From positions 1 through 12,185 of the forward strand of contig WJIO01000096.1 in assembly GCA_014730235.1 (NCBI GenBank): a stretch of DNA of 12,185 nt, written 5' to 3'. The notes beneath the pieces were generated by a model, which was not told the origin of the DNA, searched no databases, and saw only the letters and a list, made by a program, of their open reading frames with translations. Position numbers and translations under genes: made by a program. Below, one piece after another: positions 789-11,908 of the stretch (the first letter of the stretch is position 1; the number at the start of each line of letters is the position of its first letter). The stretch comes from Candidatus Poribacteria bacterium (GTDB lineage Bacteria; Poribacteria; DTPJ01; WJIO01).

Positions 789-1895
789 TTATTTTACCTC
801 GGCCCATGTTGATGCAAGCTTATTTTTTCTATCAATACTTGTAATAACTAGCTCTTCCGGCATTTCAAACAGCAAATTGTCTGAAAGGAACTGAATAGAT
901 TTATCTGCATAAAATTCATGTCCGCCGGTATGCTCCTCGTATATATGCTCTATTCCACGCTCCGTCATGACCTGATCTAAAGTCTGGGCTTCTTTGACAC
1001 TGACTATGCTATCTGACCTGCCATGTATAATCTTTATAGCTTCCAGTTGATATGGTTTCTGGAGGTATCGATCCAACTCACCATCTACAATTCCGGTGTT
1101 TAACCATTTATCCATAATTTCAGGTACTTCCTGTATTTTACCGTTTATTTTTTCATAAGGTCTGGCGACAAAGAATGGGGGATTATCGGGATCTGGGGAA
1201 GTACCTGCCAGATAACCATAAGCGGCCGTTGTCATCCAGAAAAGAGAATTCATATCTCCCCAATCTTCAGGTTCTACTGCGGCTGTTCCCCGTACCAAAT
1301 TTCTCATCCACTCACCGTTATTTTCATAGAAACCTCCCTGGGATACCACAACACTGAAAACATCAGGATATTTTATGGCTAGATACATGCTTCCGTGTCC
1401 ACCCATAGAATGTCCGGTAATACCACGACACCTTCTGTGGGGAATTGTCCGATACTTGCTATCAACATATTCAATTATATCTCTCGTTATATATCCCTCG
1501 TAATCTCCAATGGCTACTGAACTGTGGTAAAAACTACCGCTATACTTGTTGTTGCCGTCCACAAAAACAGCGATCATCTCAACGATTCTTCCACTTTTGA
1601 TCATGTTGTCCATAGAAGATCTAATAGAATCAACAGAACCTCCTGCGTTTCCACCATATCCATGAAGCATATAGAATGATGGGTAGCTTTTATCGCTGGT
1701 CTCATAGTCATGGGGTAGATATACGGCAAAGGAACGTCTTGCAGAATCACCCAGCAGATTACCTTCAAGGGATGGACTGTCTATTCTATCCCATACTATC
1801 TTGCCGTTCTGAGCTAAACTGATATGGGAAACAGAAAGTATTATGAAAAGACATAGCGCTATCCTCAGGATTGTGAAATTGTATTTTCGGACCAT
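789..1895 (-). CDS. Secreted alpha/beta-hydrolase esterase (esterase D / feruloyl-esterase type) with Trp-containing C-terminal tail
   Basis: This 368-aa exported serine esterase belongs to the putative-esterase family (PF00756: esterase D, feruloyl and acetyl esterases). It would hydrolyse ester bonds outside the cytoplasm; the substrate is unknown. Residues 1-28 form a signal peptide (basic start, hydrophobic 8-27, SLA before the likely cut). The fold is marked by YMLHGYGG (75-82), the nucleophile elbow GHSMGG with Ser163, a probable Asp295 in HGRSDS and His326 in HTGGH, so the catalytic triad looks complete. ATG 1895 is preceded by AAAGGAGA. The last 16 residues (353-368) carry the tail KLASTWAEVK shared with two other exported proteins here. 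The core resembles the esterase domain of the 962-aa protein upstream, including SPSLEGNLLGD. The stop abuts a transposase remnant, so a few terminal residues may have been lost. Confidence 0.85.
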   Translation of the reverse strand: MVRKYNFTILRIALCLFIILSVSHISLAQNGKIVWDRIDSPSLEGNLLGDSARRSFAVYLPHDYETSDKSYPSFYMLHGYGGNAGGSVDSIRSSMDNMIKSGRIVEMIAVFVDGNNKYSGSFYHSSVAIGDYEGYITRDIIEYVDSKYRTIPHRRCRGITGHSMGGHGSMYLAIKYPDVFSVVVSQGGFYENNGEWMRNLVRGTAAVEPEDWGDMNSLFWMTTAAYGYLAGTSPDPDNPPFFVARPYEKINGKIQEVPEIMDKWLNTGIVDGELDRYLQKPYQLEAIKIIHGRSDSIVSVKEAQTLDQVMTERGIEHIYEEHTGGHEFYADKSIQFLSDNLLFEMPEELVITSIDRKNKLASTWAEVK

Positions 1896-2466: not shown

Positions 2467-5355
2467 TTACTTTTTCACTGTCATTTTGCGAATGGAAGTA
2501 AAATCTCCAGCTTTTAAACAGTAAAAGTAAATTCCGCTGGCCGCTTCCTCACCGGTCTGATTTTTTCCATTCCAGTATATGGCTTTTGAACGGTCGGTAT
2601 ATATACCAGCGTTTTTGAGCCCCAGGTCCATGCTTCTGACAAGCTTTCCTGATGAGTTGTATATATTCAGTGAGACATGTGCGTTTTCGTTTAGCTGGTA
2701 GGGTATCCATGTTTCAGGATTGAAGGGGTTGGGATAGTTCTGAAGGAGGAGGGATCTATCGGGTATGATCTGTCCCAGCTTCATGTTTATCTTTACTACT
2801 GCGTCACGGATGCTTTCCGGCGTGATCTCATGTACCTGAGGGCCTGAGACTATACTGCCGTTGCTGCCCATTACAGTTATTTCCACAAAATCGCCTGATC
2901 TTACAACTGGGTTTCTGCTCAGGTCTGCGTAAGCTGTAGTGAAGTACCCGTTATAGTCAACAGCATCGGTGGCCATTTCACCGGTTCGCAGATTTCTTGT
3001 TACAACGGTGTAACTATACGCTAATTTGTTGCCCTTTACATTTCCGCTAATCACAAAGGCCCAGGCCTCATGGGGCATTGTAGGTGCAGCGTTTACAGGC
3101 GGTTCGTTTGTCCAGGCAGCCCCGGTAAAGGCGTAAGTTCCACCTTCAGGCACATTTACTATGTAGCCTTTCCCACCTTCTATTAAGAAGTTATTATGAA
3201 GCAAACCGGCGGTGTAGCCCACAAATTTCTTCTTAACTTCATCATATCTGATAACCACTGTAGCCGAAAGGGTTTCGGCGAAGGTCATGGCGTTATAAGG
3301 TGTGGTTGGCTGCAATGGCAGAGAGATCATGTTCAGACCCGGATTCAGGGTCGTGAAGAACACGTTGCTGGTGTCTCCTGAAACGTCAGTGGCCAGATGC
3401 CCTGAGAGATAGGCAAAAGCTATCCGCATCCTCTCAAACAACCTGTTGCGATGGCCTCCGGCGAATTCTTCGTACTCATGGTCTATGCCTGCGGCGTTGA
3501 GAGCTTCATGGAAGTTCTTTGTATAAATATGTGCTCCATATTCGTCAATATCCCCAGCATCCATATATATGCCGTTAAGAGAAGCTGCTTTATCGGGATT
3601 ATTGAGCATTATGGACACTACATCAGCTTCCAGGTACTTATTCCATACTTCTTCATTAATATCCGTTGATGGATACAGGAAGGGCATGTCCACATAGAAA
3701 GGTGGATTATCAAGGTTTGGCGCAAAGGCTGCGCTGGCGGCGTAAAAGATATTGGTATATACCTTTTCCTCTGACGGGCCTGTCATGCCGTCGGGATTTT
3801 CCGCTACAACAGCCGGTATTAAATCCGCAAAGAACTGACCATGCAATATTCCGCTTAAACTGGCTACCGCACCAAAGACATCAGGATACCTCAGGGCCAG
3901 TTTCATGCACCCGTATCCTCCAGCCGATTGACCGGCAATAGCACGACTGTTGCGATCCGGAATCGTCCGGTAATTGCTGTCCATGTAATTTACCAGATCC
4001 TGAACGATATAGTCTTCGTAATTTCCAGTCAGTTCCGAATTGTTGTATAAGCTGCCGCCGTAGGCATTATCTGCATTTGGCGTTACAACTATCATCTCGC
4101 TGATCTTTCCCTGGGCTATCAGTTCATCCATCATACCGGCAAAGCCGTTTTCCGGGAAATCAGGTGGTTCACCAAGACCTATGGCCTCGATTATATCCCA
4201 AACAGGGTCGCCTTTAGATATGTATTGTTTTTCAGTATCACCATAGCCATGCAGGAGATACACTACAGGATAGCGCTTGTTGGATGTCTCATAGCTGGGC
4301 GGCAGGTAGATTATCATATCCCTTTCAGCCGGGTCGCCCAGAAGGTTTCCTTCCAGGGATGGGCTGTAGATGGAGTCGGCGATCATACCTTCCATGTTGG
4401 GATCTGGCGGCGGTGGCGGCGTGGTAAGCTGTTCAACTACACCCAGCATATCCCTGGCTACCCATGATTCAGCGATTTTACCGTCAGCTATACGGTGGAT
4501 ACTGATTATTACAGTTGACACCTCGTTGCCCAGAGACGGTATTCCACCATAATCGGCAACCTGTTTTCCGGATAGTAAAGTATAGTTTACAACCTTATCA
4601 CCGGCAGCGACCTGCTTGTCAACCACAAATTCCAGATCGGAGAAAGCCGCGTGGAAACCTTCGATCATTACCTTGAAAGCTTCAGCACTGTCAATCCCGG
4701 GGGATGCAGGATCATGACGCAGGTGGTCGGGATGGTAAAGTTCATCCACAACACCAGTATTTCCATGCATCCAGACTTGGTTAATGGCTTTTCTGGATAT
4801 GGCCTTGTTGGTCTCAGGATCACCGGGATCGCCGGTTATAGGTGATGGATCACCCCATGTGTAGGTTTCCTTTGTAGCCGGAAAAACACCAAGCTGCTCC
4901 ATCATACCCATCATTTCGTTATTTTCCCATACTGCCACGATTTTGCCGTCAACGATCTGAGCTATGGATATTCCCGGTGTACAGGCAAAGTTGCCTGTGG
5001 GTGGAATTCCCATTAACTCACCTTCCTGAGTTCCGGTGAAGGTATACCGGAGGGCAACATATTCTCCCTCAGCGATAACGTCTTCAACCTCTACATGAAC
5101 ATCTGGTATAGCTGAAATATATGCCGCTAGACCCATTTTAATACCTTCTTTGGTATCAAAGGGCGGCATATTTCCGGCAAAGTCGTCCGAATATATCTCA
5201 TCCACAACGTCAATATTACCCTGGTTCCAGCCTTCATCATAGGCTCTCATGCGGACAGCTATATTTATTTCTTCCTGAGTAAGCTGAGCTATTGTGATTG
5301 CGATGAAAAGTAAACTGATCAACAGGGTTAAGACAAAATGCTTTTTAGATACCAT
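2467..5355 (-). CDS. Secreted multidomain protein: two SnoaL-like domains, PF00756-type esterase, FlgD-like C-terminal domain
   Basis: This protein is 962 aa from ATG 5355; the frame also opens 16 codons earlier, but AAGGAGG at 5363-5369 fixes the shorter start. Residues 1-23 are a signal peptide. Two tandem SnoaL-like/ester-cyclase domains follow at about 28-158 and 182-312 (AYDEGWNQGNIDVVDEIYSDDF; QVWMHGNTGVVDELYHPDHL; both end in DGKI.E/AVW). A Pro-rich linker spans 312-319. The esterase domain (about 325-656) has LLHGYGD, GQSAGG with Ser477, a likely Asp604 and His635 in AGGH. A beta-rich region (665-860) precedes a FlgD-like domain (869-962) that begins with NYPNPFNPETWIPY and ends KMTVKK. 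Such C-terminal domains serve in sorting or surface attachment in FCB bacteria; that role is inferred here. SnoaL folds include small-molecule cyclases and isomerases, but here they may only bind ligand. The esterase part is a paralogue of the 368-aa esterase downstream. Confidence 0.85.
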   Translation of the reverse strand: MVSKKHFVLTLLISLLFIAITIAQLTQEEINIAVRMRAYDEGWNQGNIDVVDEIYSDDFAGNMPPFDTKEGIKMGLAAYISAIPDVHVEVEDVIAEGEYVALRYTFTGTQEGELMGIPPTGNFACTPGISIAQIVDGKIVAVWENNEMMGMMEQLGVFPATKETYTWGDPSPITGDPGDPETNKAISRKAINQVWMHGNTGVVDELYHPDHLRHDPASPGIDSAEAFKVMIEGFHAAFSDLEFVVDKQVAAGDKVVNYTLLSGKQVADYGGIPSLGNEVSTVIISIHRIADGKIAESWVARDMLGVVEQLTTPPPPPDPNMEGMIADSIYSPSLEGNLLGDPAERDMIIYLPPSYETSNKRYPVVYLLHGYGDTEKQYISKGDPVWDIIEAIGLGEPPDFPENGFAGMMDELIAQGKISEMIVVTPNADNAYGGSLYNNSELTGNYEDYIVQDLVNYMDSNYRTIPDRNSRAIAGQSAGGYGCMKLALRYPDVFGAVASLSGILHGQFFADLIPAVVAENPDGMTGPSEEKVYTNIFYAASAAFAPNLDNPPFYVDMPFLYPSTDINEEVWNKYLEADVVSIMLNNPDKAASLNGIYMDAGDIDEYGAHIYTKNFHEALNAAGIDHEYEEFAGGHRNRLFERMRIAFAYLSGHLATDVSGDTSNVFFTTLNPGLNMISLPLQPTTPYNAMTFAETLSATVVIRYDEVKKKFVGYTAGLLHNNFLIEGGKGYIVNVPEGGTYAFTGAAWTNEPPVNAAPTMPHEAWAFVISGNVKGNKLAYSYTVVTRNLRTGEMATDAVDYNGYFTTAYADLSRNPVVRSGDFVEITVMGSNGSIVSGPQVHEITPESIRDAVVKINMKLGQIIPDRSLLLQNYPNPFNPETWIPYQLNENAHVSLNIYNSSGKLVRSMDLGLKNAGIYTDRSKAIYWNGKNQTGEEAASGIYFYCLKAGDFTSIRKMTVKK

Positions 5356-5362
5356 TAATTGG

Positions 5363-5369
5363 CCTCCTT
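5363..5369 (-). promoter_or_regulatory. Shine-Dalgarno AAGGAGG that fixes the start of the 962-aa protein
   Basis: AAGGAGG sits 7 nt before ATG 5355 on the minus strand. The upstream in-frame ATG at 5403 has no comparable site and would put 16 polar residues before the signal peptide. The downstream start is therefore preferred. Confidence 0.8.
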
Positions 5370-5517
5370 GGATAGATTTAGTTTTTACCTTTGGGTTCTG
5401 CAATCAAATATTTATATATAGACATCATCTCCTTCAAATGATTTGATAGGTAAATATGATATTGTTTACAAAAGCTTAGAATCTGAATGTAGGTTGGGTT
5501 GAGTCTAAAATTACTAT

Positions 5518-6207
5518 TTATATTTCACTCTTAATTTCACCCCAGACAACAGCAATCTTACCCTCAGGATCGACAGAGAATACCGCATCAGGAACATCAT
5601 CCCCGGTAACTGAGAAGTTGTCAAAATGAGCATCAGTGGCGGCTGTCACCCCAAAACCAGTGCCTCCATTGGGGCCGTTAGCGTTGGTATATTCCATCAT
5701 CAGCACATCGTCAACGTAGTATTTAAAGCTGTTTCCCTTAATTTCAGCTTTAAGGGTGTACCATGTGTCAATCTGCCAATCAAAGGGTGTTTCTAACAGG
5801 TTTCGATTTTGCATTAGTATAAAATCAGTAAAGTACGTTCGCAGTTTCTTCGCATTCACTCCGGGCGTTCCAAAGGAAAAATAATATCCGCTTTTACCCT
5901 TTATGAATCGAAGCCCTAAACCCGACTGCTCCCATAAGGCTGTGACTACATGCTGAGTTATCTTCATGTCAACCTGAACCGTGTAATCTTTCCAGTCAGG
6001 TCTATCCAGCACAAACATTATACCGCTTAAACCGCCAGCACCTTCAAGAATAGCGATGCCTCCTTCTACCTTCCAGTCGCCTCCTGCCCCTGTAGAAGCC
6101 AAGTGCCACTCGCCCATGTCCCCGTCGGATAGGTCATCAATGATTGTCCCGGCATAGGAACTGACGGCAAACAGTAAAAAGACTAATATTACTAAAGTTG
6201 TTTTCAA
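5518..6207 (-). CDS. Secreted concanavalin/LamG-like (DUF1080-type) domain protein with Trp-containing C-terminal tail
   Basis: This 229-aa exported protein has a signal peptide at 1-19 (cut near SSYA) and a single beta-sandwich domain at about 20-205. The domain begins DDLSDGDMGEWHLA and continues with WKVEGGIAIL, YTVQVDMKI, WYTLKAEIKG and YYVDDVLMMEY. This order is typical of concanavalin-like/3-keto-disaccharide-hydrolase-type sandwiches that bind or act on glycans. No catalytic residues can be assigned, so glycan binding is the safer guess. The tail 211-229 (SVDPEGKIAVVWGEIKSEI) matches the tails of the 368-aa esterase and the plus-strand Kelch protein. The start is TTG at 6207, preceded by AAAGGAG with a 6-nt spacer; no ATG fits. 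The gene lies between the sigma-propeller gene and the 962-aa protein on the same strand, with a 162-bp gap downstream, so separate promoters are possible. Confidence 0.75.
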   Translation of the reverse strand: MKTTLVILVFLLFAVSSYAGTIIDDLSDGDMGEWHLASTGAGGDWKVEGGIAILEGAGGLSGIMFVLDRPDWKDYTVQVDMKITQHVVTALWEQSGLGLRFIKGKSGYYFSFGTPGVNAKKLRTYFTDFILMQNRNLLETPFDWQIDTWYTLKAEIKGNSFKYYVDDVLMMEYTNANGPNGGTGFGVTAATDAHFDNFSVTGDDVPDAVFSVDPEGKIAVVWGEIKSEI

Positions 6208-6324: not shown

Positions 6325-8469
6325 CTATTTCCTTTCCACAAATCGTCCTGAATTGTTAGAAATTTTCAGTCTTGTTCCACCCATTTTGCCGCCAGCCCGA
6401 ATGACGGCATCGTATAGTCCGTTGGCCACAGGCTGACCGTATTCATCTTTGCCGTCCCAGTATGCGGCTTTTTCTTTGCTGGAGTAATCGCCAGCCGGTT
6501 GATAGCCAAGATGAAGGGTGCGGACAAGAGGACCATCGAATTTCAACCATTCGTAAATCTCTATAGTAACTTCAGCACCTTCTGATAAGCTGTAAGGAAT
6601 GCGGGTATCAGGGCCGGCTTTACGGGTCAGGGTTGGGTTAAAGGCTTTGAAGCCATATGGTTTGTCGGATTCGGCGTAGCCGATCCTGTTGGTGGTAAAA
6701 TAATCATAGCCGCTGTACCACATCCTGTATTTTTTGCCGTCAAATATTACGGCTGGCTTTTCCTGTACTCCCAGGTAATCCCATGATTCTTCATCGCCGG
6801 CTTGTAAAGCGATGATTGGCTGTTGAGTCCAGGTCATGCCGTCGGGACTGGTGGCAAAAACCAGTTTTGAGGCCGGGTATATTGTTGGATCTGATATGGG
6901 ATACCACATTATATATTCCACACCATTGAAGATGACATGAGGAGTTCCGTTGCCGTATTTCCCAGTCTGCCTTAAGACAGGATTGTCAGAATATGGCGTC
7001 CAGCTAATGCCATCACGACTGAAGGCCAGACTTATCTGACTTGCCCTCTTGCCTTTATTTTCTACTATTTCGTAATACCACATTTTATATTCGCCGCTGT
7101 CCCGAAGCACAGAGCATCCAATAATGTGTTTGTTATTCCAACCACCGTCTTCTCCGGATTTCATCACCGGGTTTCCCGAATATTTAGTCCAGTTAATACC
7201 ATCATGACTGAAAGCATATCCTAAATTGCAGGATGGCAGTCCCACATACCACAGATGGTATTGATTTCTATCCCGGAGAACATGGAAATAAAAGACACCC
7301 TTTTCATCCCATGAACCTTCAGGCCCATTTTCTAATACCGGGTTATTGTAATATTTATGCCAGTGGACACCGTCAGAACTTACAGCATAACCAACTCGGT
7401 ATCTGGATTCTGAGCCAAGGGCATAATTAGCTGCCCTGTACCACATTTTGAATTCTCTCCCATCAAATATTACATTGGGAGAAGAATGATCGTGGGAATC
7501 CCATCCCCCCAGAACACCAGCAGGCATGACCGGGTTAATAGGTTCTCCTTTGACTTCAGTCTGAGATAGGGTGTTGTAGTATGAATCGTAAAGCAAAACT
7601 TCAGTTTTAATGCTTCCGGTTTTATCCCGGCCCTGAGCAGTTCCCAACATGGTGTTTTTCGGTACATCCAGCACATCCACAGGTATCTCCCCAACTTCCG
7701 GTATTTTTATACTGGAATCCAGAGGTTGACCAAAAGGTTTAAATTCTAATTCCACCAGGTGGGGATTTGAATACAATCCAATGACGGCCAGGATGATGGC
7801 TGTGACAGAAGATAATCCCAGAGCTATTTTGGGCTTATCCAGAGATGGTTTTACCTTTATATTCTTAACTGTATCCAGAACTCTGAAGGTAAATCCAGCC
7901 TGTAACCTCTGGGATTCAAACTCTGTTTTTATATTGGATAAAATTTCCTCACGAAGTATTTCCCTGGCCTTAATGAGCCTTTTTCTGATGGCTGAGGGGG
8001 ATACTCCCACGAAATTTGCTATTTCTTCGCTGGTCATACCTCCCAGGTAATGCAGTGTAATTGCCTGCCTGTATATTTCCGGTAATATTTCAACCATATC
8101 CCGGATTTCATAATCGACCATTTGCTGATTATGAAATTCTATAGAATTTTCCTGTAAATCCTTGGATGATTTATCTTCGATATATTCATAGTCCGGTCGC
8201 CTGGAATGGCTACGTAGCCAATTGAGGCACATTCTGGTAGTTATACGATACAACCATGAAGCAAAACTATCCCAGCGTTTAAGAGTATGAAGTTTTTTGA
8301 AAGCCTGTATAAAAACTTCCTGGGCTATATCTTCTGCATCGTGAAAATTATTAAGCCTATCATAAGCCAGAGCGTATACACTTTCTCTATATTTATCCAC
8401 CAGAAAGCCAAAGGCAGACTTGTCACCATTAAGACTTTTATAGATAAAATATCCGTCTTCAGTTCGCAC
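6325..8469 (-). CDS. ECF sigma factor fused to a transmembrane helix, five-bladed beta-propeller and FlgD-like domain
   Basis: This 714-aa protein begins as an ECF sigma factor. Region 2 is at about 14-85 (FHDAEDIAQEVF; DSFASWLYRITTRMCLNW) and region 4 at about 122-176, with the helix-turn-helix MTSEEIANFVGVSPSAIRKR. A linker (185-205) leads to one membrane helix at about 214-233. The rest should lie outside the cytoplasm. It is a five-bladed propeller at about 315-600, marked by MWY/LWY at 342, 407, 463, 521 and 583 with repeated SxDGxxW..Y..NPV segments. That pattern resembles the GH43/GH32-type propeller superfamily. A FlgD-like Ig domain follows (about 608-705; YWDGKDEYGQPVANGLY). The likely role is a membrane-tethered sigma factor with its own sensor, perhaps for glycans; release by proteolysis is inference. 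The start is GTG 8469 with CAGGAG 6 nt upstream. No separate anti-sigma gene is visible. Confidence 0.85.
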   Translation of the reverse strand: MRTEDGYFIYKSLNGDKSAFGFLVDKYRESVYALAYDRLNNFHDAEDIAQEVFIQAFKKLHTLKRWDSFASWLYRITTRMCLNWLRSHSRRPDYEYIEDKSSKDLQENSIEFHNQQMVDYEIRDMVEILPEIYRQAITLHYLGGMTSEEIANFVGVSPSAIRKRLIKAREILREEILSNIKTEFESQRLQAGFTFRVLDTVKNIKVKPSLDKPKIALGLSSVTAIILAVIGLYSNPHLVELEFKPFGQPLDSSIKIPEVGEIPVDVLDVPKNTMLGTAQGRDKTGSIKTEVLLYDSYYNTLSQTEVKGEPINPVMPAGVLGGWDSHDHSSPNVIFDGREFKMWYRAANYALGSESRYRVGYAVSSDGVHWHKYYNNPVLENGPEGSWDEKGVFYFHVLRDRNQYHLWYVGLPSCNLGYAFSHDGINWTKYSGNPVMKSGEDGGWNNKHIIGCSVLRDSGEYKMWYYEIVENKGKRASQISLAFSRDGISWTPYSDNPVLRQTGKYGNGTPHVIFNGVEYIMWYPISDPTIYPASKLVFATSPDGMTWTQQPIIALQAGDEESWDYLGVQEKPAVIFDGKKYRMWYSGYDYFTTNRIGYAESDKPYGFKAFNPTLTRKAGPDTRIPYSLSEGAEVTIEIYEWLKFDGPLVRTLHLGYQPAGDYSSKEKAAYWDGKDEYGQPVANGLYDAVIRAGGKMGGTRLKISNNSGRFVERK

Positions 8470-9069: not shown

Positions 9070-9116
9070 CCGTTCGCGGGAACTAATAAGGGAAAGGAGT
9101 TAAAATATGCGAACGG
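9070..9116 (+). promoter_or_regulatory. Possible start-sequestering hairpin at the sigma-Kelch gene
   Basis: CCGTTCGC (9070-9077) is perfectly complementary to GCGAACGG (9109-9116), which begins at the G of the ATG. Pairing would enclose the Shine-Dalgarno AAAGGAG (9093-9099) in the loop and cover the first codons. It could reduce translation if the transcript starts upstream of 9070. An 8-bp stem with a 31-nt loop is modest evidence. Confidence 0.35.
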
Positions 9117-10897
9117 ATGATGGTGGAATAATACAGGATTGCCTCAACGGAAAACCGATTGCATTTGGGATCCTGGTGGATAAATACAAAACCGGAATAT
9201 ATGCTTTTGTATACAACGAACTTGGTAATTTCCACGATGCACAGGATGTGACCCAGGAAGTTTTCCTTCAGGCTTACTGCGGTCTGTGTAATTTGAGACG
9301 ATGGGAGAGCTTTTCCTTCTGGCTTTATCGAATAGCCCTTAATCTCTGCAAGAAATGGCGAAGAACCCAATCAAGGCGTCCTGATAAAGCTTTTATAGAA
9401 GATCATGATCCTGAAATGCGCGATTCTTCGCTTTCAGACTACCATCAGGAAAATCTAAATGAATCCCTCCAGGAATCGCTGGATTCACTACCCAAAGTTT
9501 ACCGGGAAGTGCTAATGCTCTACTACTTTGGCGGCATGAGCACTAGGGATATTGCCAGGGCAATCGGCATATCACCTGCGGCAGTCAGAAAGCGCATGAG
9601 CAGAGCGCGAGCGCAATTAAGGGTAGAAATGATTCCGGTGATGACTACAGCCTTTGATGGACAAAGATTGCAGGCCGATTTTACATTCCGTGTTGTGGAA
9701 GCTATCAAAGGCATAAAGATTCATCCCATGCCCCGAAATGCAGGGCTTCCCTGGGGCATGTCAATCGCTATTGGCATTGTTATCGCCGTCCTGGGGCTGA
9801 ACCCCCGCCTGAATATATTCAGCGATGTTTCTTTTTCCCATGAATCTCCCAGGTTGATAGAGTCGAAGGTATTAAAAACCGGGGAGATTCCTACAGAAAT
9901 AATTAATCTATCCGAAACATCAGTCATTTCCAGCAAACAAGGGAATAAGAATAATACAAGATCACAGCAAAATCTACAGAATGACCTCTCATGGGAAACT
10001 CATGATAAAATAGGGAAATGGGCTAAAAAAAGCGATATGCCCACTCCCCGAAGTGCCCTGGCAGCTAGTCTAGTGAGAGATAAGATATATGTTGTCGGCG
10101 GTATTTCTGTGAGTTCTGAATATATTCCGATTCAGGCTTTTCCCGCAGTAGAAGAATACAATCCATCTACAAATTCATGGATCAAAAGGGCTGACATGCC
10201 AACTACAAGAGCCGCCCTATCCACCAGCGTAGTAAACAATAAAATATATGCTATAGGAGGAGCTATTGGAGAACCTATGATAGCTCTTTCTTCAGTGGAG
10301 GAATATGACCCTGAAAGGGATGTCTGGACTAAAAAAGCTGATATGCACACTAAAAGGTGGATTCTGACTACCTGCGTGGTAAACGATAAAATCTATGCAA
10401 TAGGTGGGCATGTCTTAGGTGGCGGACAATATGCCACAGTGGAAGAGTATGATCCTGAGACGGATACCTGGACTAAAAAAGCTGACATGCCTACGCCAAG
10501 AGAGAACTTCTCAGCCAGTGTAGTAAATGGCAAAATTTATGCTATCGGTGGCTGGAATGACACTGATAAGACCCTTTCTGTAGTGGAAGAATATGACCCG
10601 AAAACGAACACCTGGGTGAAGAAAGCTGATATGCCTGATATCAGATGGGGTCATGGTACCTGCGTTCTGGATGACAGGATATACGTTATTGGCGGAGGCA
10701 ATGGATCCGGGATGCGTTATTCCAATGCACTGGAATATAATCCGTCTACAGATAAATGGAAGGAGAGTTTTCGTATCCACACTCCAGCGGTACAGTTAGC
10801 TACAAGTGCGTTTAATGGAAAAATCTATGCAATCGGTGGCTATAATGGCGAGAAAGCTCTCGGAACAGTAGAGGAATATTCTATTCACGATAGATAA
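9107..10897 (+). CDS. ECF sigma factor fused to a transmembrane helix and a six-repeat Kelch beta-propeller
   Basis: This 596-aa protein has an ECF sigma N-terminus. Region 2 is at about 14-85 (FHDAQDVTQEVFLQAY; ESFSFWLYRIALNLCKKW) and region 4 at about 122-176 (MSTRDIARAIGISPAAVRKR). A linker (FDGQRLQADFTFRV, 183-196) leads to one membrane helix at about 214-231. After a polar stretch come six Kelch repeats with KIYxxGG cores at residues 326, 379, 428, 476, 524 and 572, enough for a closed six-bladed propeller outside the membrane. Kelch propellers bind proteins or sugars, so a tethered sigma factor with a built-in sensor is inferred. ATG 9107 follows AAAGGAG. It is closest to the divergent sigma-propeller protein over the first 205 residues. 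The secreted Kelch gene follows after 15 bp, surely in the same operon. No separate anti-sigma gene is present. Confidence 0.87.
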   Translation: MRTDDGGIIQDCLNGKPIAFGILVDKYKTGIYAFVYNELGNFHDAQDVTQEVFLQAYCGLCNLRRWESFSFWLYRIALNLCKKWRRTQSRRPDKAFIEDHDPEMRDSSLSDYHQENLNESLQESLDSLPKVYREVLMLYYFGGMSTRDIARAIGISPAAVRKRMSRARAQLRVEMIPVMTTAFDGQRLQADFTFRVVEAIKGIKIHPMPRNAGLPWGMSIAIGIVIAVLGLNPRLNIFSDVSFSHESPRLIESKVLKTGEIPTEIINLSETSVISSKQGNKNNTRSQQNLQNDLSWETHDKIGKWAKKSDMPTPRSALAASLVRDKIYVVGGISVSSEYIPIQAFPAVEEYNPSTNSWIKRADMPTTRAALSTSVVNNKIYAIGGAIGEPMIALSSVEEYDPERDVWTKKADMHTKRWILTTCVVNDKIYAIGGHVLGGGQYATVEEYDPETDTWTKKADMPTPRENFSASVVNGKIYAIGGWNDTDKTLSVVEEYDPKTNTWVKKADMPDIRWGHGTCVLDDRIYVIGGGNGSGMRYSNALEYNPSTDKWKESFRIHTPAVQLATSAFNGKIYAIGGYNGEKALGTVEEYSIHDR

Positions 10898-10912: not shown

Positions 10913-11908
10913 ATGAAAAACTATTCTATTTATGTAATAATACTAATAGGGTTCCATAGTTTATTTTCGGCCAGTTACGCGGATGAAGGAAAATGGGTAA
11001 AAAAAGCTGACATGCCTACTGCAAGATGGATTCTATCTACCAGTGTGGTAGAGAATAAAATCTATGCTATTGGAGGGCATAAAGAAGGTAATATAACACT
11101 ATCGAAATTAGAAGTATACGACCCAGAAACAGATTTGTGGGAAAAAAAAGCTGATATGCCTGTTGCTAGAGAGAACTTCTCCACCAGCGCAGTAAATGGC
11201 AAAATCTATGTTATTGGTGGATGGAATCCGATTAATAATACCTTATTTAGGGTAGACGAATATGATCCCAAAACAGAAACATGGACAAAAAAAGCTGATA
11301 TGCCTATCGCCAATTGGGGTTTCTCCAGCACTGAGCTTAATGGAAAGATATATGTCGTTGGCGGCGGAACAAATTCTTCGGGAGTATATGAGTATGACCC
11401 CGCCAGAGACAAGTGGATAGTAAAAGCTAATATGCCTACAGGAAGATGCCACGTGTCTATCAGTGCTGTCCATGGTAAAATCTATGCTATTGGAGGGTAT
11501 ATAGGCAATACTTTTTATCCCACGGTGGAAGAATATGATCCTGAAATTGACAAATGGAATAAAAAAGCAGATATGTCATTTCCGAGAGCTGGTTTATCTA
11601 CTGAAGCAATCAATGGAAAGATTTATGCTATCGGTGGTTATACGTTGAATCCTTGGGCGGTGTTTTCGATAGTAGAGGAATATAATCCCGAGACAGACAC
11701 CTGGAAAAGAAAAGCCGATATGCCTACGGCAAGAGGTACTTTATCTACCAGTATAGCCAATGGAAAGATTTACGCTATCGGTGGAGCTACAGCAGGTCTA
11801 AATGCTCTCACAACAATAGAAGAATACGAAACTGGATTTGAAGAAAAAAGCGTAGATTCGAAAGGCAAATTTGCCACTTTCTGGGGTAAGTTAAAAGTGA
11901 AGAATTGA
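10913..11908 (+). CDS. Secreted six-repeat Kelch protein with Trp-containing C-terminal tail
   Basis: This 331-aa exported protein has a signal peptide at 1-23 (hydrophobic 5-20, cut near SYA). Six Kelch repeats follow, with KIYxxGG cores at residues 49, 97, 145, 189, 236 and 284 and connecting segments of the EEYDPETDTWxKKADMPTAR type. Together they should close a six-bladed propeller. Blades 1-4 match blades 3-6 of the upstream sigma ectodomain in order, and blades 5-6 match its blades 1-2. This suggests a duplicated, circularly permuted copy. The tail 313-331 (SVDSKGKFATFWGKLKVKN) matches the tails of the 368-aa esterase and the 229-aa protein. ATG 10913 follows AGAAGGCGG and lies 15 bp after the sigma gene, so the two are co-transcribed. 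It could be a partner, competitor or structural relative of the sigma sensor; none of these is shown. Confidence 0.87.
   Translation: MKNYSIYVIILIGFHSLFSASYADEGKWVKKADMPTARWILSTSVVENKIYAIGGHKEGNITLSKLEVYDPETDLWEKKADMPVARENFSTSAVNGKIYVIGGWNPINNTLFRVDEYDPKTETWTKKADMPIANWGFSSTELNGKIYVVGGGTNSSGVYEYDPARDKWIVKANMPTGRCHVSISAVHGKIYAIGGYIGNTFYPTVEEYDPEIDKWNKKADMSFPRAGLSTEAINGKIYAIGGYTLNPWAVFSIVEEYNPETDTWKRKADMPTARGTLSTSIANGKIYAIGGATAGLNALTTIEEYETGFEEKSVDSKGKFATFWGKLKVKN

Follow-up and report, generated by a model that had tools for sequence, protein, structure and literature searches.

Three exported proteins encoded in the window, by which we mean the whole 12,185-nucleotide stretch of poribacterial DNA analysed here, share a C-terminal tail of about 15-19 residues with a conserved tryptophan (the W-tail). 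We consider it likely that this tail is a phylum-wide and phylum-specific candidate C-terminal sorting signal of Poribacteria, which are dominant sponge symbionts studied mostly through their genomes. It probably serves soluble proteins exported by Sec, for crossing the outer membrane or for staying on it. All three tails reported in the initial annotation translate as claimed. The first is carried by an esterase of the alpha/beta-hydrolase fold (368 aa, 789..1895, minus strand; Pfam Esterase, 5.3e-23) with a signal-peptide-like N-terminus, and reads SIDRKNKLASTWAEVK and stop (789..839, minus strand; profile match E 2.4e-6). The second belongs to an exported concanavalin/LamG-like protein (229 aa, 5518..6207, minus strand; Pfam PF21708/PF06439), which ends in SVDPEGKIAVVWGEIKSEI, that is SVDPEGKIAVVWGEIK followed by SEI and the stop (5518..5577, minus strand; E 2.6e-7). 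The third host is a Kelch beta-propeller (331 aa, 10913..11908, plus strand; Pfam Kelch), also with a signal-peptide-like N-terminus, ending in SVDSKGKFATFWGKLKVKN, that is SVDSKGKFATFWGKLK followed by VKN and the stop (11849..11908, plus strand; E 8.2e-6). Its propeller is predicted by AlphaFold at high confidence, and the tail lies outside it, disordered (residues 311-331, pLDDT <50).

The consensus first proposed describes a real motif, which can be refined to [AP]-V-[ED]-P-x-[GDN]-K-L-[AT]-[TS]-[TS]-W-[GA]-x-[IL]-K, then 0-5 residues, then the stop. Among 66 tails gathered under relaxed conditions, the constrained positions are V5 (61 of 66), K10 (60 of 66), L11, W15, [GAS]16, [IVL]18 and K19 (63 of 66), with 0-5 residues after K19 in 64 of the tails. 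As this set was partly picked with a W-anchored pattern, W15 and the positions directly following it are biased; V5 and K10 are free of that bias. The composition is polar and Lys-rich, and the periodicity is ambiguous as to secondary structure (about 80-85 degrees for conservation, about 160 degrees for the hydrophobic moment).

The three tails counted originally are all genuine, but they are part of roughly a hundred in the same genome (5.53 Mb, 451 contigs). A degenerate DNA pattern for the core, GK-[hydrophobic]-[APST]-x-x-W-[AG]-x-[hydrophobic]-K, written GGNAARNTNNCNNNNNNNTGGGSNNNNNTNAAR, had 39 matches there against none for the reversed pattern used as control, and the first 30 matches examined were all in frame, ending 0-9 codons ahead of a stop. 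With a profile built from 31 tails, 128 sites were found in this genome at E<=10 (best 1.2e-8). The core pattern was present in every one of 84 Poribacteria genomes (12-97 matches each), and the reversed control gave 0 in each. A stricter pattern returned at least 119 matches in at least 113 stretches of the GTDB representatives, nearly all of them in-frame C-terminal tails. Among the matches listed, and with record titles for all but the last 33 of these stretches, the tail is essentially confined to Poribacteria. The exceptions among the matches listed are five that are internal or sit in chance frames of very small size, four with non-poribacterial titles or an internal location, and one on a 'Deltaproteobacteria' contig (L096:2639-3651). 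This last one is the single match in a 4.0-Mb bin and sits on a 3.8-kb contig, whose esterase is 44% identical to that of the window; it reflects either mis-binning or transfer. Bacteroidota, the home of the classical type IX secretion system (T9SS), yielded 1 match across 148 genomes, and six genomes reached through outlying matches had exactly one each. Outside Poribacteria the tail is at chance level. Viral copies were also considered and rejected, the seven IMG/VR matches being one internal, non-C-terminal stretch of a single protein family.

The claim that the tail is common to unrelated exported proteins was borne out on a much larger set. In a proteome sample of 1.05 Mb from the window's genome and a second one (G003), in which some contigs were picked for holding tails, all 59 HMM matches were at the C-terminus. 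A signal-peptide-like N-terminus was found in 52 of 52 tailed proteins, versus 147 of 441 and 84 of 262 untailed ORFs (32-33%); because these calls come from a home-made rule and not from SignalP, the contrast carries more weight than the absolute figure. With such N-termini, the tailed proteins are expected to use Sec export. Nearly all lack a later transmembrane (TM) anchor (a later TM-like stretch occurs in 1 of 52) and a lipobox. A looser pattern added 14 further tails, and the three ORFs that carry the tail but no signal peptide resemble fragments or ORFs at contig edges. By BLAST, 158 tailed proteins fall into 21 mutually unrelated groups, and their Pfam domains are mainly LamG, but also Kelch, PD40, WD40, esterase, discoidin, cohesin, lamin-tail, CBM9, NPCBM and DUF4960. 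All 27 LamG ORFs in the sample carry the tail. The profile matches are thus spread over many folds, placed at the C-terminus and linked to signal peptides. A search for the tail marks the putative surface or secreted proteome of Poribacteria in one pass.

Among related proteins, the tail is also the most conserved part. Such proteins differ in amino-acid sequence by 17% in the tail, by 26% in the body and by 34% in the short, fast-evolving linker that precedes the tail; both the host protein and the linker change faster than the tail does. The synonymous difference at identical residues is 39%, 42% and 42%, respectively. With amino-acid divergence lowest in the tail while synonymous divergence is nearly equal throughout, the comparison points to purifying selection on the tail peptide and not on the DNA. 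In the AlphaFold model of a LamG protein the tail is a weak helix outside the domain (pLDDT 52-66). A Foldseek search with this model retrieved concanavalin-type receptor-binding and sialidase lectin domains. These represent the usual LamG fold and are uninformative on the tail.

C-terminal sorting tags are known as a kind, but this one belongs to a single phylum and has neither a TM helix nor a beta-sandwich. We found no NCBIfam or Pfam model covering it and no description of it in the open-access papers searched; matches of the NCBIfam models CFI-box and Firmicu-CTERM to two tailed proteins were discarded, being below cut-off and placed upstream of the tail. PEP-CTERM, LPXTG, MYXO-CTERM and GlyGly-CTERM are likewise short C-terminal tags on unrelated exported proteins, but they combine a motif with a TM helix and a basic cluster. 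The W-tail is polar, Lys-rich and without a TM helix, and the initial annotation was right to set it apart from LPXTG and PEP-CTERM. The peptides that load cargo into encapsulins and microcompartments resemble it in being short, linker-borne, possibly amphipathic and found on unrelated proteins; they act on cytosolic proteins, whereas W-tailed proteins have signal-peptide-like N-termini. Dockerins, too, are C-terminal docking elements on secreted proteins, but a dockerin is a calcium-binding duplicated domain of about 60-70 aa and the W-tail a single short peptide. These genomes encode both cohesin-domain proteins with a W-tail (L075:99-1832 and L120:1302-2894) and a dockerin-like C-terminus (L259:8060-9055).

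Another close parallel is the type A C-terminal domain of the T9SS (TIGR04183/PF18962), which is also found at the C-terminus of Sec-exported proteins of many folds, with a conserved lysine and hydrophobic residues near the end. It differs in being an Ig-like beta-sandwich of 70-100 aa, against 15-19 aa with a W-[GA]-x-[IL]-K core for the W-tail, which is disordered or weakly helical in models. Both occur in the window's genome, and once on paralogous esterases: a 978-aa esterase (2467..5403, minus strand), 37% identical to the tailed one over 317 aa, has no tail and ends in a type A sorting domain (TIGR04183, 30.3 bits, cut-off 23). The two elements look like alternative C-termini, as judged from this one pair. 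In Poribacteria, type A-like domains terminate in G/K-K-[MIL]-[AV], and the core of the W-tail starts with G-K-L-[AT]; the motif [GKR]-[KR]-[LMIV]-[ATVSM] occurs within the last 20 residues of 31 of 66 W-tails, 8 of 10 type A-like C-termini and 19 of 718 other ORFs. Type A domains escape detection by the tail profile, and a homology between the two elements is at most putative. In T9SS type A domains, a near-invariant lysine near the C-terminus is functionally important (PMC10994853).

The initial annotation had held that the tail does not fit the type IX domain. This stands for its sequence (TIGR04183 in 0 of 61 W-tailed proteins at E<=0.001), but the same genomes carry homologues of SprA, PorV and PorU. 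SprA-like proteins are found in 80 of 81 genomes, mostly as ORFs of about 2,000-2,300 aa and nearly all under the curated cut-off; the one in the window's genome scores 182, just below the cut-off of 200. PorV-family proteins are above cut-off in 23 of 23 genomes, with 13-25 copies (226 against a cut-off of 90 for PorV_fam in the window's genome), and PorU-like peptidases are present in 23 of 23, one in the window's genome passing with 460 bits (cut-off 420). The motor gene GldM was matched in 0 of 23 genomes, and no control genome was matched either. The T9SS-like set of the window's genome (SprA-like, PorU, PorV-family) is located at G000:C368:46643-53536 (L257:6643-13536), G000:C261 (L258:5789-12121) and G000:C164 (L260:928-1863). 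Elsewhere, ORFs of very large size whose C-terminal region is of the PorU type are directly followed by PorV-family genes (G000:C267:31225-32822, G015:C14:28166-29622, G019:C58:181387-182892), an arrangement resembling substrate-shuttle pairs. In 2014, Por-type C-terminal domains were noted in Poribacteria and the structural genes of that system were not found (PMC3909097), a statement that the homologues detected by our profile searches revise. The GspD secretin of the type II secretion system (T2SS) is above cut-off in 12 of 12 genomes. Having both a T9SS-like set and a universal GspD, Poribacteria have more than one outer-membrane route.

Co-occurrence with one processing or secretion gene had been proposed as a check. 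Among the neighbours in 113 loci no such gene is linked to the tail, and the neighbours belong to generic poribacterial families (PhyH, GFO/IDH/MocA, sulfatases). None of 72 W-tail genes adjoins a PorV-like gene, compared with 3 of 16 type A-like genes, some of whose regions had been selected because they hold PorU or PorV genes. In 7 of 14 regions, a stretch of 12-20 kb holds both a W-tail gene and GspD, and W-tails near GspD reach 5.2 per 100 kb vs 1.5-2.1 in unselected stretches; several of the seven regions are orthologous to one locus, and the enrichment therefore amounts to few independent cases. Gene linkage does not choose between outer-membrane routes. At L286:8249-14354 and its orthologues, two tandem GspD secretins of about 1,000 aa lie in a T2SS-like operon, and a W-tailed protein is encoded downstream.

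What had been proposed as a sorting, anchoring or secretion tag is a C-terminal element conserved across exported proteins with many different folds; we put its function forward as a candidate only. That it has no sorting role, and was spread by duplication or fusion of one LamG family and carried along, is highly improbable. LamG proteins do make up 71 of 97 tailed proteins, and 41 of 72 tailed genes adjoin another tailed gene; however, the 21 unrelated groups, a tail better conserved than the body at nearly equal synonymous divergence and its exclusive pairing with signal-peptide-like N-termini already contradict this account. We also find it improbable that the tail acts within the periplasm, either retaining proteins there or serving as a mark for a periplasmic chaperone or protease. 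Export does seem to apply to every tailed protein sampled, and Tsp/Prc-type tags do look like short C-terminal peptides, but most domains of the hosts are of the extracellular type (LamG, Kelch, cohesin, CBM, esterase), and a degradation tag is hard to reconcile with strong conservation on about 100 proteins per genome. The T2SS exports folded periplasmic proteins, has its secretin in all 12 genomes and lies near W-tails in half of the 14 regions. It is nevertheless unlikely that the tail is its recognition signal, as those seven regions are partly orthologous copies of one locus; the T2SS is common in phyla that lack the tail, and we know of no short C-terminal T2SS signal.

The candidate sorting signal could work as follows. 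Tailed proteins would be exported by Sec and would then fold in the periplasm, where a putative receptor may bind the exposed tail through Lys10, Leu11, Trp15, Gly/Ala16, Ile18 and Lys19, and either move the protein across the outer membrane or fix it on the surface. The tail would offer a handle for finding this receptor. One might speculate that the tail is instead a surface-docking peptide, on proteins that take another route outward and then bind a surface receptor, much as dockerin binds cohesin. The two tailed cohesin proteins (L075, L120) would make sense as surface scaffolds, and the L, W and I residues could form one helix face with flanking lysines; with no receptor found and no conserved neighbour gene in 113 loci, we regard docking as rather doubtful. 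A separate, undescribed route of outer-membrane delivery or surface attachment, neither T9SS nor T2SS and serving dozens to more than 100 proteins per genome, is a possibility that we entertain tentatively. The reading that we favour over the others, without giving it an even chance, is that the tail is read by a T9SS-like route, made of the SprA-like translocon, PorV-family shuttles and PorU-like peptidases, in which it would be a short alternative to the type A domain. In its favour, the same genomes carry these homologues, and a further signal type is not far-fetched, given that types A, B and C are known (PMC10202324) and that type B uses its own shuttles (PMC12618676). Near absence from Bacteroidota (1/148), no PorV adjacency (0/72), no beta-sandwich in the tail models, a tail profile that misses type A domains and the universal T2SS speak against it. 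On balance, the T9SS reading is weakly favoured. Together with the SprA, PorV and PorU homologues, the tail makes poribacterial delivery of proteins to the surroundings a testable question.

The window also encodes two ECF sigma factors joined through a TM helix to exported-type domains. One (6325-8469) carries a GH32-like domain and ends in a FlgD-like domain. The other (596 aa, 9107..10897, plus strand; Pfam sigma-70 r2/r4 and Kelch, one TM helix) has no tail; in the alignment its propeller ends at the point where the exported paralogue continues into its tail. Each of these fusion genes adjoins a W-tailed gene, but sigma factor-TM fusions were rejected as partners of the tail, such a gene being at most two ORFs away in only 3 of 66 tailed genes. 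A DDE transposase fragment of 129 aa is found at 270-659. In another region (L227:3851-8316) there are exported proteins whose repeats, e.g. QNGNSNFALINQMGNG, look similar to those of curlin.
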